Source of the DNA: an uncultured Kangiella sp.
GTDB lineage: Bacteria > Pseudomonadota > Gammaproteobacteria > Enterobacterales > Kangiellaceae
Reading direction: 5' to 3'
DNA length: 64,000 bases
Assembly (NCBI GenBank): GCA_947503435.1
Contig: CANNDL010000003.1
Span: 1-64,000, forward strand
The notes beneath the pieces are model-generated. The model was not told where the DNA came from, ran no database searches, and was given only the letters and a program-made list of their open reading frames with translations. The position numbers and the translations under genes are program-made. Of the stretch, positions 57,120 to 64,000 are shown piece by piece. The first letter of the stretch is position 1. The number at the start of each line of letters is the position of its first letter.

Positions 57120-58601
57120 TTAAGGCTCACTACTACACATCATCGGTGTGCAAGTTCCTCCCGTCCGGCCTCCGCCTAAAGTAGCATATTCAATTGACTT
57201 TATTGGGTAACTGCATCGCTCCGCATTACAAGCTTGTACATAAATATCGCCACTACCCCAGCTTTTGAAAACATTTACATAATCATTGGTTGTGGTTGTA
57301 AATAATTGCAGATCTTTTGCTGAGTTTTCGACAAAAACCTTGTAGTGACTTGCGCCAGCAATCTTATCCCAGGCAAGGGGACGACCGGCGAAACCCATCG
57401 GAGTATTACGGACATTCTCTACATCCTTTAATACTGCTACTTTATGTGTACGAGATGGAATAACTGTGGAGCCATTGTGATATTGATTTAAGGCATATTT
57501 AAATTGGTAAACATTAATATAGTTATGTGGACGATTAATTGAACTATTAAACAGCGCTAAATCAAATGGAGAATGTTTGCTGATCGTATCTTCAGATAAA
57601 GGTTGTGAAATATTATGATTGCGTATATCTAAAGCGCTATAGGTCGAGATAAAGTTATAATCTCTTAAGTTAAAAGTATATTCACTATAGCTCACGCCGG
57701 AAATACCCGCGGCTTCTTGCAGTCCATCACGGAAGGTCTGAATTGGGTTAGGAGTTAAAAAGCTACCTGGCGCATTATCGTAAAAATGATACTTAGTTCT
57801 ATCACAAGGGAACTCGCAATTCTCTATCGATTTAAACTTCACAGAATGATGGAAATCACGGATAGTAAAATCCATCTTATAACTTAGTGGAGTCTGGTTT
57901 TCACTCAGACCATAACTGTTACCCTTACTACCATTCACAATTGCCACTCTTGCTAAGTTATTAGGGTATCCTTTCATTTCGAGCTGCTGATAAAAACCTT
58001 TAGCACTATCTCCCCAAATTAACATCTGCTGGCCAGCAGGAGTATCATAAGCTCTCCTGGCTTTAGAAATTTCACTAGGAACACCGAAGCCAATATCAAT
58101 AAAGTCTGCATAGTCTTCAATATGATCCCGGATATCTTTAGGTAAATTGGCTCCTCTATGAGGCGAGTCAAAAGAAACATACAAAGAGGTATTATGACTT
58201 TGCCCAAGGTTTTCCATATGCTTTAGCGCCCAGCGAGCCACTAAACCACCCATACTAATACCCACTACCGCATTAGGATAATTTCCCACCTTCTGAGTAT
58301 TAACACTATTAATAATAGTCACTAGCTCATTTGCATTAGTGCTAATCGATGCACCGCCATTAGCAAAATTCACCAAAACAATATCACGACCACTGCCATC
58401 AGCCGTCACTTGATTAATTAAAGTGCTATAAGCAGATTCATAATAAGCTTCGTTGTATTCATTCAGTGGGTCATAACCTTCAGCAATAATCACTGGCTTA
58501 TCAAAAACTCCATCAGGGCTTTTGATAATTTTCATAGTTGCTGCTTGAGTAGAAGTCGCCAATGCCGAAAGCATTAAGCCTGCTAAAAGTTTTGTTTTCA
58601 T
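57120..58601 (-). CDS. Secreted serine esterase/lipase, PGAP1-like alpha/beta hydrolase
   Basis: A 493-residue exported hydrolase. A Sec signal peptide (MKTKLLAGLMLSALATSTQA, cleavage after TQA) leads into an alpha/beta-hydrolase domain. The oxyanion and nucleophile regions are PVIIAEGYDPLNEYN and VVGISMGGLVARWAL (Ser116), with FDSPHRGANLP typical of PGAP1/lipase-like enzymes. The histidine and acid cannot be fixed with certainty. The last 100 residues look like a fibronectin type III-type module (PLAWDKIAGASHYKVFVEN) and end in a Gly- and Cys-rich tail (TGGTCTPMMCSSEP). Likely substrates are lipids or esters outside the cell. It has its own terminator and lies between the tRNA genes and the RHS locus. 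Confidence 0.72.
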   Translation of the reverse strand: MKTKLLAGLMLSALATSTQAATMKIIKSPDGVFDKPVIIAEGYDPLNEYNEAYYESAYSTLINQVTADGSGRDIVLVNFANGGASISTNANELVTIINSVNTQKVGNYPNAVVGISMGGLVARWALKHMENLGQSHNTSLYVSFDSPHRGANLPKDIRDHIEDYADFIDIGFGVPSEISKARRAYDTPAGQQMLIWGDSAKGFYQQLEMKGYPNNLARVAIVNGSKGNSYGLSENQTPLSYKMDFTIRDFHHSVKFKSIENCEFPCDRTKYHFYDNAPGSFLTPNPIQTFRDGLQEAAGISGVSYSEYTFNLRDYNFISTYSALDIRNHNISQPLSEDTISKHSPFDLALFNSSINRPHNYINVYQFKYALNQYHNGSTVIPSRTHKVAVLKDVENVRNTPMGFAGRPLAWDKIAGASHYKVFVENSAKDLQLFTTTTNDYVNVFKSWGSGDIYVQACNAERCSYPIKSIEYATLGGGRTGGTCTPMMCSSEP

Positions 58602-58711
58602 TATTCACCTTCACATTTAATAAAATTCAAAGGGATTTTAGAGAAATCTCAATTTTCAATTATTCGTTATAAGCCTTTTTTTATTTCAATTTGGACAATA
58701 TATGGTGGTTT
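58602..58711 (-). promoter_or_regulatory. Upstream region of the esterase gene
   Basis: About 110 AT-rich bases between a terminator and the esterase ATG must hold the promoter, but I could not pick a convincing pair of hexamers. AAGGTGAATA on the minus strand just above 58601 is a good ribosome binding site. Confidence 0.3.
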
Positions 58712-58735
58712 AAAAAAACCAGCACAATGCTGGCT
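58711..58735 (-). terminator. Terminator of the RHS-lipoprotein operon
   Basis: On the minus strand CCAGCA / TGCTGG with a 3-base loop is followed by TTTTTTT (58712-58718). It lies 20 bases after the lipoprotein stop and separates that operon from the esterase gene. Confidence 0.8.
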
Positions 58736-58754
58736 AATAATTAAATGTAAAAAG

Positions 58755-59390
58755 TTACTCTGACCCACTTACATGAACTCTAAAGCCATTTTTAGCGAGA
58801 TAATTACCAAGCTCTTTAAATGATGATTGGTTAGATAAAAAGGTATTTAGCAAACTAGATAGCTTTGTATCAAATACAACATTCGATACGTATGAATTTT
58901 TATTAGTAGAAGAATTTAGATATAAATCTAATCTATAAGTTAGCTGCTTATCTGAATTAAGCTCTACTAAAGATGTTGTAGTTAACCAATCTACATTTTT
59001 AGCTTCAAAAGTCACTCCGCCTCTATTAACTCGAGCGTCAACCAATTGAAGTCCAGCCGTGCTTATTTTCGAAACCCTCTCGTAAACATCATTAAAACCA
59101 TCCTTCATTTTATTTTCAAAAATACTTTTGAAAGTACAGTCGGAAATATTTATTGACTCACAAAGCTCTATTCTATTACTAGATGTAAATGTCATTTTTG
59201 AGTTATTATCACTGAAAATTACTATTCTAGTATTAGAGCTTTCATATATAGTAACATCCTTTGGAATTGACCTCGGCAATTCAATAGTCATATTGAAATC
59301 ATTACTTAATACTTCAGCGCTCGACAACTTTTCGACTCTTTCTGCGCAGCTTGAAATAAGCATCACAGCTGCCATTAAAAACCACTTCAT
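58755..59390 (-). CDS. Small lipoprotein, candidate immunity protein for the RHS C-terminal domain
   Basis: A 211-residue lipoprotein with a short signal peptide and lipobox LISSC, Cys15 (AERVEKLSSAE follows). I recognise no family. The mature domain is mixed alpha/beta with two further cysteines close together (LCESINISDCTF). Its ATG is one base after the RHS gene stop (TAA-A-ATG), so the two must be translated together, and a terminator closes the pair. A small gene directly downstream of an RHS gene with a variable C-terminus is normally the cognate immunity gene; a lipoprotein would protect the periplasmic side. This role is inferred from position only. Confidence 0.65.
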   Translation of the reverse strand: MKWFLMAAVMLISSCAERVEKLSSAEVLSNDFNMTIELPRSIPKDVTIYESSNTRIVIFSDNNSKMTFTSSNRIELCESINISDCTFKSIFENKMKDGFNDVYERVSKISTAGLQLVDARVNRGGVTFEAKNVDWLTTTSLVELNSDKQLTYRLDLYLNSSTNKNSYVSNVVFDTKLSSLLNTFLSNQSSFKELGNYLAKNGFRVHVSGSE

Positions 59391-59391
59391 T

Positions 59392-62300
59392 TTAGTAATT
59401 CCTCATCTTTTTCCGCTCACTGTTTAGAATCCCATACGCTTCGACTTCTAATTGTTTTAACTCAATCATTAGGTCAGTTTTATTTTTTGCCTTACCAACC
59501 GCTTCAATAACTTTATTTTGCATTGGTCCAATCATATATGTGCCTATAAATATATCTTTTAACTGTCCATGTGCTATTTTATGAGCTTGAATCATATACA
59601 ATCTTTTGTAATGGTCGTGTGCAATTGCATAATGTAGAAATAGTTCATTTTTTATATATGAACTTACACCCTTACAGTTGCACTTTTGTCCGTATTCATA
59701 AGAGCTATGAAGCATTACCATAAGATCTTCTGACGACAAAAAGCCATTCGATGATAAAAATGTTAATAACTCAGCCCACGGCTTAAAACTATCTTTTCCA
59801 TTTGAATTAGCTTGGCGCATAATTTCATTAAGTTCTTCAAGTTTTTTATAGGAATCAACTTCGGTCATACTTTTGATCAAGTCTTTTAAATTAAAGACCG
59901 TTCCTGGGCCTAAAGTAGAAGCCATTTTGATTGCTTTCTTCTTATCTGTACCTCCACCTATAACCTTAGTGATGTCCTCTAAACTAGCTCCATCATTTAC
60001 AACTTTAACACCTATAACATTAGTTGCATCTAATATATTTGCTTTGTTTGGCTTGCCTAGTGTGTGCACTATCAATGTTGCATTTGCATCGCTACGAGAA
60101 CGCCCTCTATGTTTGCCTATCAATGCTCCACTTCCAGTTGTTGCTCCACTGCAGTTAAAACTACTAGCATCACACCCTTTGATTCCGCCAAAATAGGCTC
60201 CACCTAGCCAAGAATACCTTTTTTCCAAATAACTAACCGCTTCTCTTGCGTAACCACTAGGATCGGTAAAGGCTAACGGATTATTCAACACATATGAATA
60301 AGGGTTCATAGCCTGAGAATTACCGGCATCTTGCACGAAAGGATCTACACTCAAGAATCTACCAAGATTGTAATCGTAGGCACGTCCATTCATATGGATG
60401 AGCTCATGGTCATCCAGCTGCTCATGGTCTGTAAAGCCACGTTCCGTAGTACGATTAATTTGAGTTAAGCCAATAATACTGGTTAAGGTATTTTGGCTAG
60501 GTTCAACGAAGTCACCTTTACGTGGCTTGCCGAATGGGTCAAAGCTTCTGTGCTCTTTGATATTGCCTAAATGGTCAGTAATGGACACTACCGAACCTAA
60601 GCGATCACGATGAGTAAAACCAATATCCCAAGTTGAATTTTTCTTGGTTTGTATTGCTACATCGCCAATGTAGTGCTTATATTTGGTTGTGCTTCCCTGC
60701 ACTTCTTTTTCTAATAATTTATCAATGTAGTATGTGGTAATAGTACCGCCAGCAGCGCCCGTCTTAACCTGCTTATAGCGCATCAAGTCCGCGCCATAAG
60801 AAAAAGTCGAAGTCACACCACCCTTAGTAATGGTTAATGGCTTGTTGAACTCATTGTAAGTAATCGTCTTGCCATCGCCATTGAGCAAGTTGCCATTTCT
60901 GTCGTAGTTAAAATAAATTCGACTACTAGTACCTTTCTTTAACAACCCTCTAACGGCATTTGGACCTGCGTTACCACTATTGTTTATGTTTCGAGAGCCG
61001 CTCGCATGGTATGAATAGGCAGTTGAGTTTTGTGCGCTATAATCTGACTTATATTTAAAGTTACCAATTGCGTCATAAGCATAGTTAATACTCACTGGCG
61101 CAGCCCCATTGTAGAAACTACGATAGCTGTTGGTTAAACGATGCAAGTTATCGTATTGATATTCTTCTGAGTTCACTCCACCAGTCGTCGAGACCATCTG
61201 TTTGTACAAATTGCTAAAGCCATCGTATTGATAAGAAAGCTCATGACGCAAGCTATCACCACTGGTTGTGGAAGTACGCACGTCCATCATTTGCCCAGTC
61301 GCAGCATGGTAATTAGTTATTTCAGTTAGCAAACCATTAGACTTTAATTGGTCAGTAACCTTACCGTGCGCATCTAAGTCACGGATTTCTTGATAAACAT
61401 AACCACCGTTGGCATTCTTAATCTTGGTCATGTAACCCAGAGAATTATAATCATAAGCCAAAGTTAACCCCGTGGTGTTGTACTTCATGCCTTTAGGGCG
61501 ACCATAATTCGTATCCGTGTAATACAAAATGTCAAAGTCAGAGTAATTTGAACTACTGGTGTGGTAATTACGGTACTTCACTTGGTCAATAACCTTCTTA
61601 GTACCTGCTGAATTTGACGTGTAGTAATAGTACTTACGCAATCGATTAGTGAAACTACTACCGTTTTCTTCCCAGCTCAATAATCCTAAACCTTTGCGAG
61701 ACCAGGTTTCATCCCAAACCCATCGACCATTACGAGTACCGTTTATCCAGCGGTAGGTCATGCGGCCTAAAGTATCGTAGGAGTAGGTTAGCTCATCACC
61801 ATTTGCATCGACTTCTTTTTCTACTTCACCAAAGGTGTTGTACCAGAAAAACTTCTTACCCATGTTCGGGTCATCAACGTATTCCTTTTGACCTAAGGCG
61901 TTATACTTAGCGTAAATCTTATTACCGCTAGCATCTTGAAGCGTTACAGGATTACCTGCACCGTCATAGGCATAACGCGTGTAGTTACCATCAGCATCTT
62001 CAGTCCACACTAACTGTCCTAAACCATTATACTTACGACTCATATTTAAGGTCGTTTCGCCAATAGCCGTAATATCCGTCTCAAAACCATCGTAGCTATA
62101 ACGAGTTTCCATTAAACTATTATCAGCCTGTGGTGATTGCTTTATTAGTAATCGACCTAAAGAATCATAACCATCATAAACATTGTATTTCATGAAATAA
62201 GTTCTTTGCCAACCTAAACCATCGCCACCGTTATATGTACCCTGAGATATTTTCTGTCCTTTGCTGTTAAACAAAGTACGATTATAGTACCAGTGATCAC

Positions 62301-64000
62301 TATTAAAATTACGGGTTATTCCGTAACCATTTCTGTTTAAATTGTCAAAATAACTATAGGTATTTGGTTTGCCAACAGCTCGGTTTAACACTCTATATTT
62401 AGATTTAAAATTACCATACTGTGGGCACCAAGCACTACCGGCATTAACTCCACTGCACCACCAATAAGCCACTCTTTGAGTCGGTTCACCAGGAAGTTTA
62501 GTTGACCGTACTCGGGCAAAAGCATCGTAAGTCATAGTGGTCACTTGATTATTCGGGTCTGTGACTTTAGTGGCCTTGCCATGAATAGGATCGACTTCAG
62601 TTGTCGTTACATGGCCCTTAGAGTTAGTGACAGTTTTAACAAAATAACCATCCGTAGCAGTATTCACGCCATCTTTAGAGTAAGTCGTGGTTACTGAGCG
62701 GTTAGACATATCCGAACCAGTAAAATGGTCACCTGTAGTAGTAACCGAAGTTGGCAAGCCATAACTGTTATATGCAGTGTTCACAACTGAATATAAATTA
62801 CTCGCAGTTCCCTGACCTTGAGTCGCTACAGTAGTGACTTTTGTCGGTTTACAATAACTTGCACTAACCGTATCAATAGTCGTTTTTACCGACTTAGTTA
62901 TATCTGCTCCACTTTCTACAGATGCATAATCACTAGGACGGTTACTGATATTCTTTGTCGTGACTTGGCTCCAGGTAGGCTGATTAGGCACAGCAGAACA
63001 TTTAGCGACAAAGCTACTGGTAGTGGTTTGAGACTCACTAGCATTAATCAACGAGGTATCTGATTCGCTGTAAATACTCTTTTGATTAGTGACATTCCCC
63101 CAAGTATCTATCGAAATAATATCGTTGGTTTTCTTAAATAAAAATGCGCCGGTATTTAAATCATAATTTCTACTAATTACTGGATCGGCATATGGAAGAT
63201 AGGCACTTTGGTTAGTAAGAGTTTTCCACGTTGTGTCAACTTTAGAAATTCTCTGGTAAGAGCCACTCGAATTTTTAGCATATGACTCGGATAATGATAC
63301 CTTTCCCGAAAATGGAAAATCTTGTCTAAAGGTGTTAGTCGTTTTAGTACCAAGCGTTACATGCTCTTCTGTTATGGTTTTAAAACCCTGAAACCCTCTG
63401 CCTTCCAAGTTAAATCTTGCATCCGTATATGAAAATTTTGTTTCATTTAATCCACCGATACCATTACTAGATTTATAAGAATTAACCATCTGTATGGCAG
63501 TATTAAAATTCACATAAGGCTTGAAGTAACCTTTGCTAAATAAATAGCGGTTAGAGGAGTGTAAATTTGTTAACGAATCATAACTGAACTCATCGATAAG
63601 AGACATATCACCGCCTCGATTCACTTTAACTATCTTGTCAGCCTTGGCATTAGGATTCTTATACCAATATAAACCTAGGCTATGGCTACTGGTCATTGTC
63701 GATAATCCTTTGTTAGCAATAATATCGACTGCGCCGTCACCATTATGATCCACAAGGTGAAGTAGTTTGCGAGACGCAACAACTCCTAACTCAGGAGAAC
63801 CAATTTCTTTAAAGGATAAGGTTCCGTTGGTATTAATTTCAGTTTGCAAAATTTTCCAATGATATAAGGCGCTGTAGTCATTACACTTTTGCCAGAGATC
63901 CCAATCCTCTCCATTACCCACAATATCAAAATAGCTTGGTATAGAGCCACAATCACTAGCATAAGCTACTCCATAAGGGATCAAATAATCGGGCACTCCA
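59392..64000 (-). CDS. RHS/YD-repeat protein with unassigned C-terminal domain (5' end outside window)
   Basis: At least 1535 residues, open to the right edge, so the true N-terminus is not seen; the first in-window Met is at 63996. The N-terminal part has VCBS/FG-GAP-like calcium motifs (DHNGDGAVDI) and a SpvB/TcdB-like block (GRGFQGFKTI). Then come many YD repeats, e.g. YTRYAYDGAGNPVTLQDA and YSYDTLGRMTYR, and the RHS core (about in-window residues 1130-1249: DHLGNIKEHRSFDPFGKP, RAYDYNLGRFLSVDPF, NPYSYVLNNPLAFTDPSGY). This forms a shell that encloses a C-terminal cargo. The cargo, 285 residues at 59395-60249, is not recognisable and contains a His-rich stretch. The lipoprotein gene follows by one base. 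Confidence 0.88.
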   Translation of the reverse strand, partial: GVPDYLIPYGVAYASDCGSIPSYFDIVGNGEDWDLWQKCNDYSALYHWKILQTEINTNGTLSFKEIGSPELGVVASRKLLHLVDHNGDGAVDIIANKGLSTMTSSHSLGLYWYKNPNAKADKIVKVNRGGDMSLIDEFSYDSLTNLHSSNRYLFSKGYFKPYVNFNTAIQMVNSYKSSNGIGGLNETKFSYTDARFNLEGRGFQGFKTITEEHVTLGTKTTNTFRQDFPFSGKVSLSESYAKNSSGSYQRISKVDTTWKTLTNQSAYLPYADPVISRNYDLNTGAFLFKKTNDIISIDTWGNVTNQKSIYSESDTSLINASESQTTTSSFVAKCSAVPNQPTWSQVTTKNISNRPSDYASVESGADITKSVKTTIDTVSASYCKPTKVTTVATQGQGTASNLYSVVNTAYNSYGLPTSVTTTGDHFTGSDMSNRSVTTTYSKDGVNTATDGYFVKTVTNSKGHVTTTEVDPIHGKATKVTDPNNQVTTMTYDAFARVRSTKLPGEPTQRVAYWWCSGVNAGSAWCPQYGNFKSKYRVLNRAVGKPNTYSYFDNLNRNGYGITRNFNSDHWYYNRTLFNSKGQKISQGTYNGGDGLGWQRTYFMKYNVYDGYDSLGRLLIKQSPQADNSLMETRYSYDGFETDITAIGETTLNMSRKYNGLGQLVWTEDADGNYTRYAYDGAGNPVTLQDASGNKIYAKYNALGQKEYVDDPNMGKKFFWYNTFGEVEKEVDANGDELTYSYDTLGRMTYRWINGTRNGRWVWDETWSRKGLGLLSWEENGSSFTNRLRKYYYYTSNSAGTKKVIDQVKYRNYHTSSSNYSDFDILYYTDTNYGRPKGMKYNTTGLTLAYDYNSLGYMTKIKNANGGYVYQEIRDLDAHGKVTDQLKSNGLLTEITNYHAATGQMMDVRTSTTSGDSLRHELSYQYDGFSNLYKQMVSTTGGVNSEEYQYDNLHRLTNSYRSFYNGAAPVSINYAYDAIGNFKYKSDYSAQNSTAYSYHASGSRNINNSGNAGPNAVRGLLKKGTSSRIYFNYDRNGNLLNGDGKTITYNEFNKPLTITKGGVTSTFSYGADLMRYKQVKTGAAGGTITTYYIDKLLEKEVQGSTTKYKHYIGDVAIQTKKNSTWDIGFTHRDRLGSVVSITDHLGNIKEHRSFDPFGKPRKGDFVEPSQNTLTSIIGLTQINRTTERGFTDHEQLDDHELIHMNGRAYDYNLGRFLSVDPFVQDAGNSQAMNPYSYVLNNPLAFTDPSGYAREAVSYLEKRYSWLGGAYFGGIKGCDASSFNCSGATTGSGALIGKHRGRSRSDANATLIVHTLGKPNKANILDATNVIGVKVVNDGASLEDITKVIGGGTDKKKAIKMASTLGPGTVFNLKDLIKSMTEVDSYKKLEELNEIMRQANSNGKDSFKPWAELLTFLSSNGFLSSEDLMVMLHSSYEYGQKCNCKGVSSYIKNELFLHYAIAHDHYKRLYMIQAHKIAHGQLKDIFIGTYMIGPMQNKVIEAVGKAKNKTDLMIELKQLEVEAYGILNSERKKMRNY

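Follow-up and report, generated by a model that had tools for sequence, protein, structure and literature searches.

The C-terminal tail of a large, probably secreted RHS protein and the lipoprotein encoded directly after it are highly likely to form a polymorphic toxin-immunity pair, of a class of systems that is already known. We infer that the tail is toxic and that the lipoprotein neutralises it; very probably, the tip and its presumed immunity protein are both new, within a known weapon type rather than a new kind of system. Both genes lie near one end of the window, by which we mean the whole 64,000-nucleotide stretch of uncultured Kangiella sp. DNA that was analysed. The original prediction had read this locus as a toxin domain with its immunity gene, and that reading is supported by a pattern of swapped tails within the genus and by a small gene at the stop codon in 14 of 15 RHS genes compared. 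Standing against it, the window's tail and lipoprotein are both without a convincing relative, and the tail has no known toxin domain. Among the matches listed in a literature search on RHS toxins and immunity, no title or abstract opening described this pair.

In solved RHS proteins, the tip is encapsulated in the shell, cut off after the core and released. By analogy, the 2,421-residue protein, which combines an apparent Sec signal and an SpvB region with an FG-GAP propeller and the RHS shell, would carry an interchangeable C-terminal tip that is packed within the shell and, once cleaved behind DPSG, is set free in a rival cell. The cognate immunity protein would be the lipoprotein, presumably cotranscribed with the RHS gene. 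A toxin tip and immunity protein without known relatives would thereby be added to a well-understood weapon design.

Organisation of the RHS and lipoprotein genes

The features of the locus are as follows.

58717..58735, minus strand: hairpin resembling an intrinsic terminator, with 8 pairs, a 3-base loop and a T run; lies after both genes
58755..59390, minus strand: lipoprotein gene, 211 residues, presumed immunity protein; lipobox-like ISSC with Cys15; GC 32.1%
59392..64000, minus strand: 3' part of the SpvB-FG-GAP-RHS gene; the full gene encodes 2,421 residues and extends to L002:10657, contig position 66657
59395..60252, minus strand: variable C-terminal tail, presumed toxin tip, 286 residues; sharp change after DPSG
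60253..62067, minus strand: last 605 residues of the RHS core, ending GRFLSVDPFVQDAGNSQAMNPYSYVLNNPLAFTDPSG, from profile and sequence matches

About 2.66 kb of the RHS gene lies outside the window end, and the length of 2,421 residues was taken from the genome sequence. Within the window, profile searches identified RHS repeats (E 4.3e-17) and the RHS-associated core (NCBIfam TIGR03696, E 1.6e-15), with the core terminus ...NPLAFTDPSG at position 60253; the claim that the gene keeps its RHS core up to the DPSG motif is thus borne out. Pfam analysis of the full protein added SpvB (PF03534, E 4.7e-18, residues 261 to 432) and three stretches of FG-GAP_3 (PF13517, E 1.5e-15), alongside the RHS repeats (E 1.5e-17). 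Read by eye, the N-terminus of the open reading frame (ORF) resembles a Sec signal.

The long extension after DPSG stands as originally described, except that it is 286 rather than 285 residues long. It has a GC content of 35.8% including the stop codon, against 41.5% in the adjoining core and 32.1% in the lipoprotein gene. The tail is basic (pI 9.24), and its C-terminal half contains five histidines within 22 residues (tail residues 207 to 228) and a CNC motif at residues 191 to 193. Judging from these residues, our guess is that the histidine stretch and CNC motif might bind metal. The active part may likewise be guessed to be the last ~150 residues, which are histidine rich and helical only at very low confidence.

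The original prediction could name no family for either the tail or the lipoprotein, and searches of Pfam, NCBIfam, PADLOC and PDB sequences returned nothing significant for either one. Against PHROGs, the sole match to the tail had an E value of 0.06, so that none of these five resources places a known toxin domain in the tail; the lipoprotein weakly matched phrog_8976 (function unknown, E 0.0013), phrog_35150 (E 0.0039) and three more above E 0.07. Structure prediction had also been proposed and was carried out on single sequences, with unusable results for both proteins: the tail model has a pLDDT of 40.2 and places all its helices at or beyond residue 96 of the 291 in the query, and the lipoprotein model has a pLDDT of 34.2.

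We searched for relatives of the tail using the 286 residues preceded by TDPSG, except in its own genome, where the bare 286 residues served as the query. That genome yielded no convincing relative, nor did overlapping genome sets from the genus (20), order (295), class (369) and phylum (398). Besides the tail's own gene, the only sub-significant piece was a 62-residue match in the class search (G380, E 0.002); at E ≤ 0.01, a few matches are expected by chance over 369 genomes. For the lipoprotein, genomes of the genus (20), order (394) and class (369) gave no convincing relative and weak matches only (E 2.6e-4 to 0.009). Five of these, from the order search, contained internal stops and were judged to be chance, and another came from the class search (G418, E 0.0032). 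Scans with short exact peptides, by which distant relatives would be missed, found no relative of the tail in plasmids, viral contigs or genome contigs and none of the lipoprotein in plasmids, phages or genome contigs. The lipoprotein was therefore found nowhere apart from this RHS gene in the genus, order and class genomes, plasmids, phages and genome contigs covered.

The junction between the two genes is tight. On the minus strand, a single base separates the end of the RHS stop codon (59392) from the lipoprotein ATG (59390), and an AGGA sequence that resembles a ribosome-binding site lies inside the 3' end of the RHS gene. These positions agree with the one-base gap and the 211-residue lipoprotein gene described originally, as does the lipobox-like ISSC at Cys15, which was called with our own pattern. 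The terminator placed after the lipoprotein gene also has a counterpart, in a hairpin followed by T's at 58735 to 58717 on the minus strand. A scan of positions 58500 to 60300 returned two such sites, against a mean of 1.1 (standard deviation, 1.2) in shuffled sequence, so that the position of the hairpin, more than the count, argues for a terminator.

Beyond the hairpin, positions 57120 to 58601 (minus strand) encode an exported-looking, esterase-like protein whose PGAP1-like match (E 9.2e-5) falls below the Pfam cutoff. This gene is present in only 1 of 20 genus genomes, which makes a syntenic comparison by way of it uninformative.

Tails and partner genes on sibling RHS cores

The original prediction proposed comparing the locus across relatives for joint swapping of the C-terminus and the next gene. 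Using the last 605 core residues as a query, we identified matches at 28 places in 14 of the 20 genus genomes (E ≤ 1e-10), while the tail and the lipoprotein each matched a single genome of the 20, the window's own. The DNA downstream of 20 of the 28 matches was read together with the window's own gene (L002), for a total of 21 loci. A strict core-end motif is present at 16, and 15 were counted once L042 (G012) was set aside, a truncated member with just 16 residues beyond the conserved core end. The uncounted loci either have a divergent core end (L043, L044, L045, L051 and L052) or are of lower similarity (L017, L018, L025, which is the same gene as L051, L030, L031 and L032), and most of them also have a small ORF near the stop. 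Outside these counts, L026 gave no match when the uncounted loci were read, and L027 is a fragment of the core at the edge of a contig.

Across the 15 genes (105 pairs), the last 50 core residues have a median identity of 92% (range, 80 to 98%). Despite this near-constant core end, the tails are alike in only 4 of 105 pairs (E ≤ 0.1 in either direction), none of which involves the window's tail, and the partners in 3 of 91; the pairs were identical whether sequences were compared in one direction or in both. The C-terminus is thus not conserved along with the core, and tails and next genes both differ among siblings, as the predicted swap would have it. In all nine alignments to the window's gene, from 9 of the 14 other genes, identity is 75 to 85% over the final 40 residues of the core and 5 to 30% over the first 40 of the tail. 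Similarity breaks at DPxG.

In 14 of the 15 genes, a same-strand ORF of at least 90 residues begins at -17 to +18 nt relative to the stop; the exception is G010a. Partner starts were set at the first start codon of the ORF, and some true starts lie further in. As a control, a close same-strand ORF (-20 to +20 nt) follows 10 of the 25 long ORFs of the window; at that rate, the chance of at least 14 in 15 would be 2.5e-5 if the 15 genes were independent, which they are not fully.

In three genes (G019, G006 and G011b), most of the tail is shared (E 4e-51 or better); exactly these three account for the alike partner pairs (E 2e-13 or better). Here, a tail family and a partner family are inherited jointly. 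The window's own pair was never seen transferred together, and its cotransfer is therefore argued from these sibling genes. The fourth alike tail pair, G008/G011a (L047 and L040), matches only over tail residues 7 to 86, next to the core, and has unrelated partners, as if a shared linker lay beneath two different toxins. By eye, the L047 tail contains an HExxH motif and the L040 tail an HTHP motif; neither tail has a match above a curated cutoff.

We also scanned the sibling sequences for known families. Pfam placed none of 13 sibling tails (all of the 14 but L049) in a curated family, the best match being DUF3920 below its cutoff (E 0.0094), and NCBIfam placed none of 10 of the 14. Counting the window's tail, 0 of 14 RHS tails scanned against Pfam belong to a curated toxin family, and a genus of such uncurated tails is a ready source of new antibacterial activities. 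Among 7 of the 13 sibling partners scanned with Pfam, the partner of G015b is Imm33-like (E 8.1e-40) and stands beside a tail in which we read HNH-like Cys/His motifs; the other six have no match at E ≤ 0.01.

Two further loci were observed in the course of this comparison. At L035 (G009), an extra downstream gene of 133 residues resembles the G019 partner (E 1.7e-18), of the family common to G019, G006 and G011b, and on this similarity it is likely an orphan immunity gene. A second RHS gene in the window's own genome (L038, G000:C3:77639-84390) has a core that ends 18.6 kb past the end of the window; its 297-residue tail is unrelated, and its 239-residue partner shows no evident export signal.

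Known systems, delivery and site of action

Passages of Zhang et al. (2012, PMC3482391) describe TcdB/TcaC-type polymorphic toxins with a signal peptide, SpvB, an integrin-like propeller, RHS and a variable tip, and they list Imm33 as one immunity protein against Tox-HNH toxins, for which TcdB/TcaC is one of the export routes given. The layout of the window's gene fits the TcdB/TcaC export class as outlined there: it has SpvB, FG-GAP and RHS regions, an N-terminus that looks signal-like by eye, a swappable tip and a small adjoining gene. The Imm33-like partner of G015b also fits the Imm33/Tox-HNH listing in those passages. What sets the window's locus apart is that its partner is a lipoprotein and that neither the tip nor this presumed immunity protein falls into a curated family.

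Other relatives share parts of this design. Among PDB sequences, the RHS region is matched best by teneurin-like proteins (9pt5, E 3.2e-11; 9ifo, E 6.3e-11), which have only the YD/RHS shell in common with it, and the matches stop short of the tail. Residues 248 to 427, which contain SpvB, match the Tc/ABC toxin B subunit YenB (PDB 4igl, E 1.9e-9), but the window's gene combines SpvB and the RHS core in one protein and is followed by a presumed immunity gene. The RHS repeats are also related in sequence to the type VI secretion system (T6SS) effector Tse5 (PDB 8cp6, E 1.2e-10) and to PDB 7q97 (E 1.6e-9), a "Rhs family protein" that we take to be a T6SS effector. In T6SS RHS effectors, the tip follows the core and the immunity gene lies downstream. 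Unlike these effectors, the window's protein has SpvB and a signal-like N-terminus, and its genome has no detected VipB/TssC sheath gene. The VipB sheath family (PF05943), the single T6SS family searched, had no match in this genome (completeness, 99.97) and was detected in E. coli among 14 control genomes. We therefore considered T6SS delivery of the RHS protein and judged it unlikely.

The site of action of the tail is probably the periplasm or the membrane, although we hold this with only modest confidence; the suggestion follows from a partner that looks exported and lipid anchored. For Lipocone and other envelope-targeting polymorphic toxins, passages of PMC12419801 take transmembrane or lipoprotein immunity to point to the periplasm or membrane as the place of action. 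The window's partner resembles such an exported lipoprotein; nothing points to a lipocone fold in the tail.

Among the 14 partners, 9 look exported or membrane bound and 5 have no such signal, as judged partly by eye. Our pattern called a lipobox in the window's lipoprotein (G000a), G009b and G007; by eye, G011a, G010b and G008 contribute two lipobox-like partners and one signal-like partner, and the single family of G019, G006 and G011b has hydrophobic segments. With so many exported-looking partners, RHS proteins in a genome without a detected sheath gene may often strike the cell envelope. A bolder reading sees in the tail a new helical toxin fold, probably dependent on metal, that hits the envelope, and in the genus a reservoir of SpvB-RHS-like weapons biased, unlike T6SS RHS effectors, to envelope-acting tips. 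The same 9 of 14 partners suggest such a bias, and we regard this combined reading as speculative and rather doubtful.

One possibility is that the pair is a toxin and its immunity protein but that the toxin is cytoplasmic, with the lipoprotein intercepting the released tip as it crosses the periplasm. Many nucleases are basic, as the tail is. RHS is usually fused to cytoplasm-acting toxins according to a Salmonella T6SS study (PMC12994826), which favours this possibility and counts against an envelope target. Yet the arrangement expected for a cytoplasm-acting tip is that of the Imm33-like partner, which has no export signal and stands beside an HNH-like tail, whereas the window's partner looks exported, as do 9 of 14 overall. 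We consider a cytoplasmic toxin unlikely, and an envelope-acting one remains our preferred reading.

Alternatives to a toxin and immunity protein

The tail could instead be a decayed or nontoxic remnant, such as a worn tip or a linker, with the lipoprotein a chance neighbour. Such a remnant would be consistent with a tail that has no relatives or recognised domain, with the truncated copy in G012 and with the close same-strand ORF that follows 10 of 25 long ORFs in the window. It is difficult to reconcile with an open frame of 286 residues, which falls within the 214 to 317 residues of the sibling tails, or with the one-base junction, the ribosome-binding-like site and the terminator-like hairpin after the pair, and we find it very unlikely.

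An accessory role for the lipoprotein, in secreting the RHS protein or anchoring it at the surface rather than in immunity, would suit an exported-looking protein of no known immunity family encoded directly after the RHS gene, but it is the least probable explanation, as an accessory of the shell should be kept with the shell, and the lipoprotein occurs in 1 of 20 genus genomes against 14 of 20 for the core, with unrelated partners on the sibling cores.
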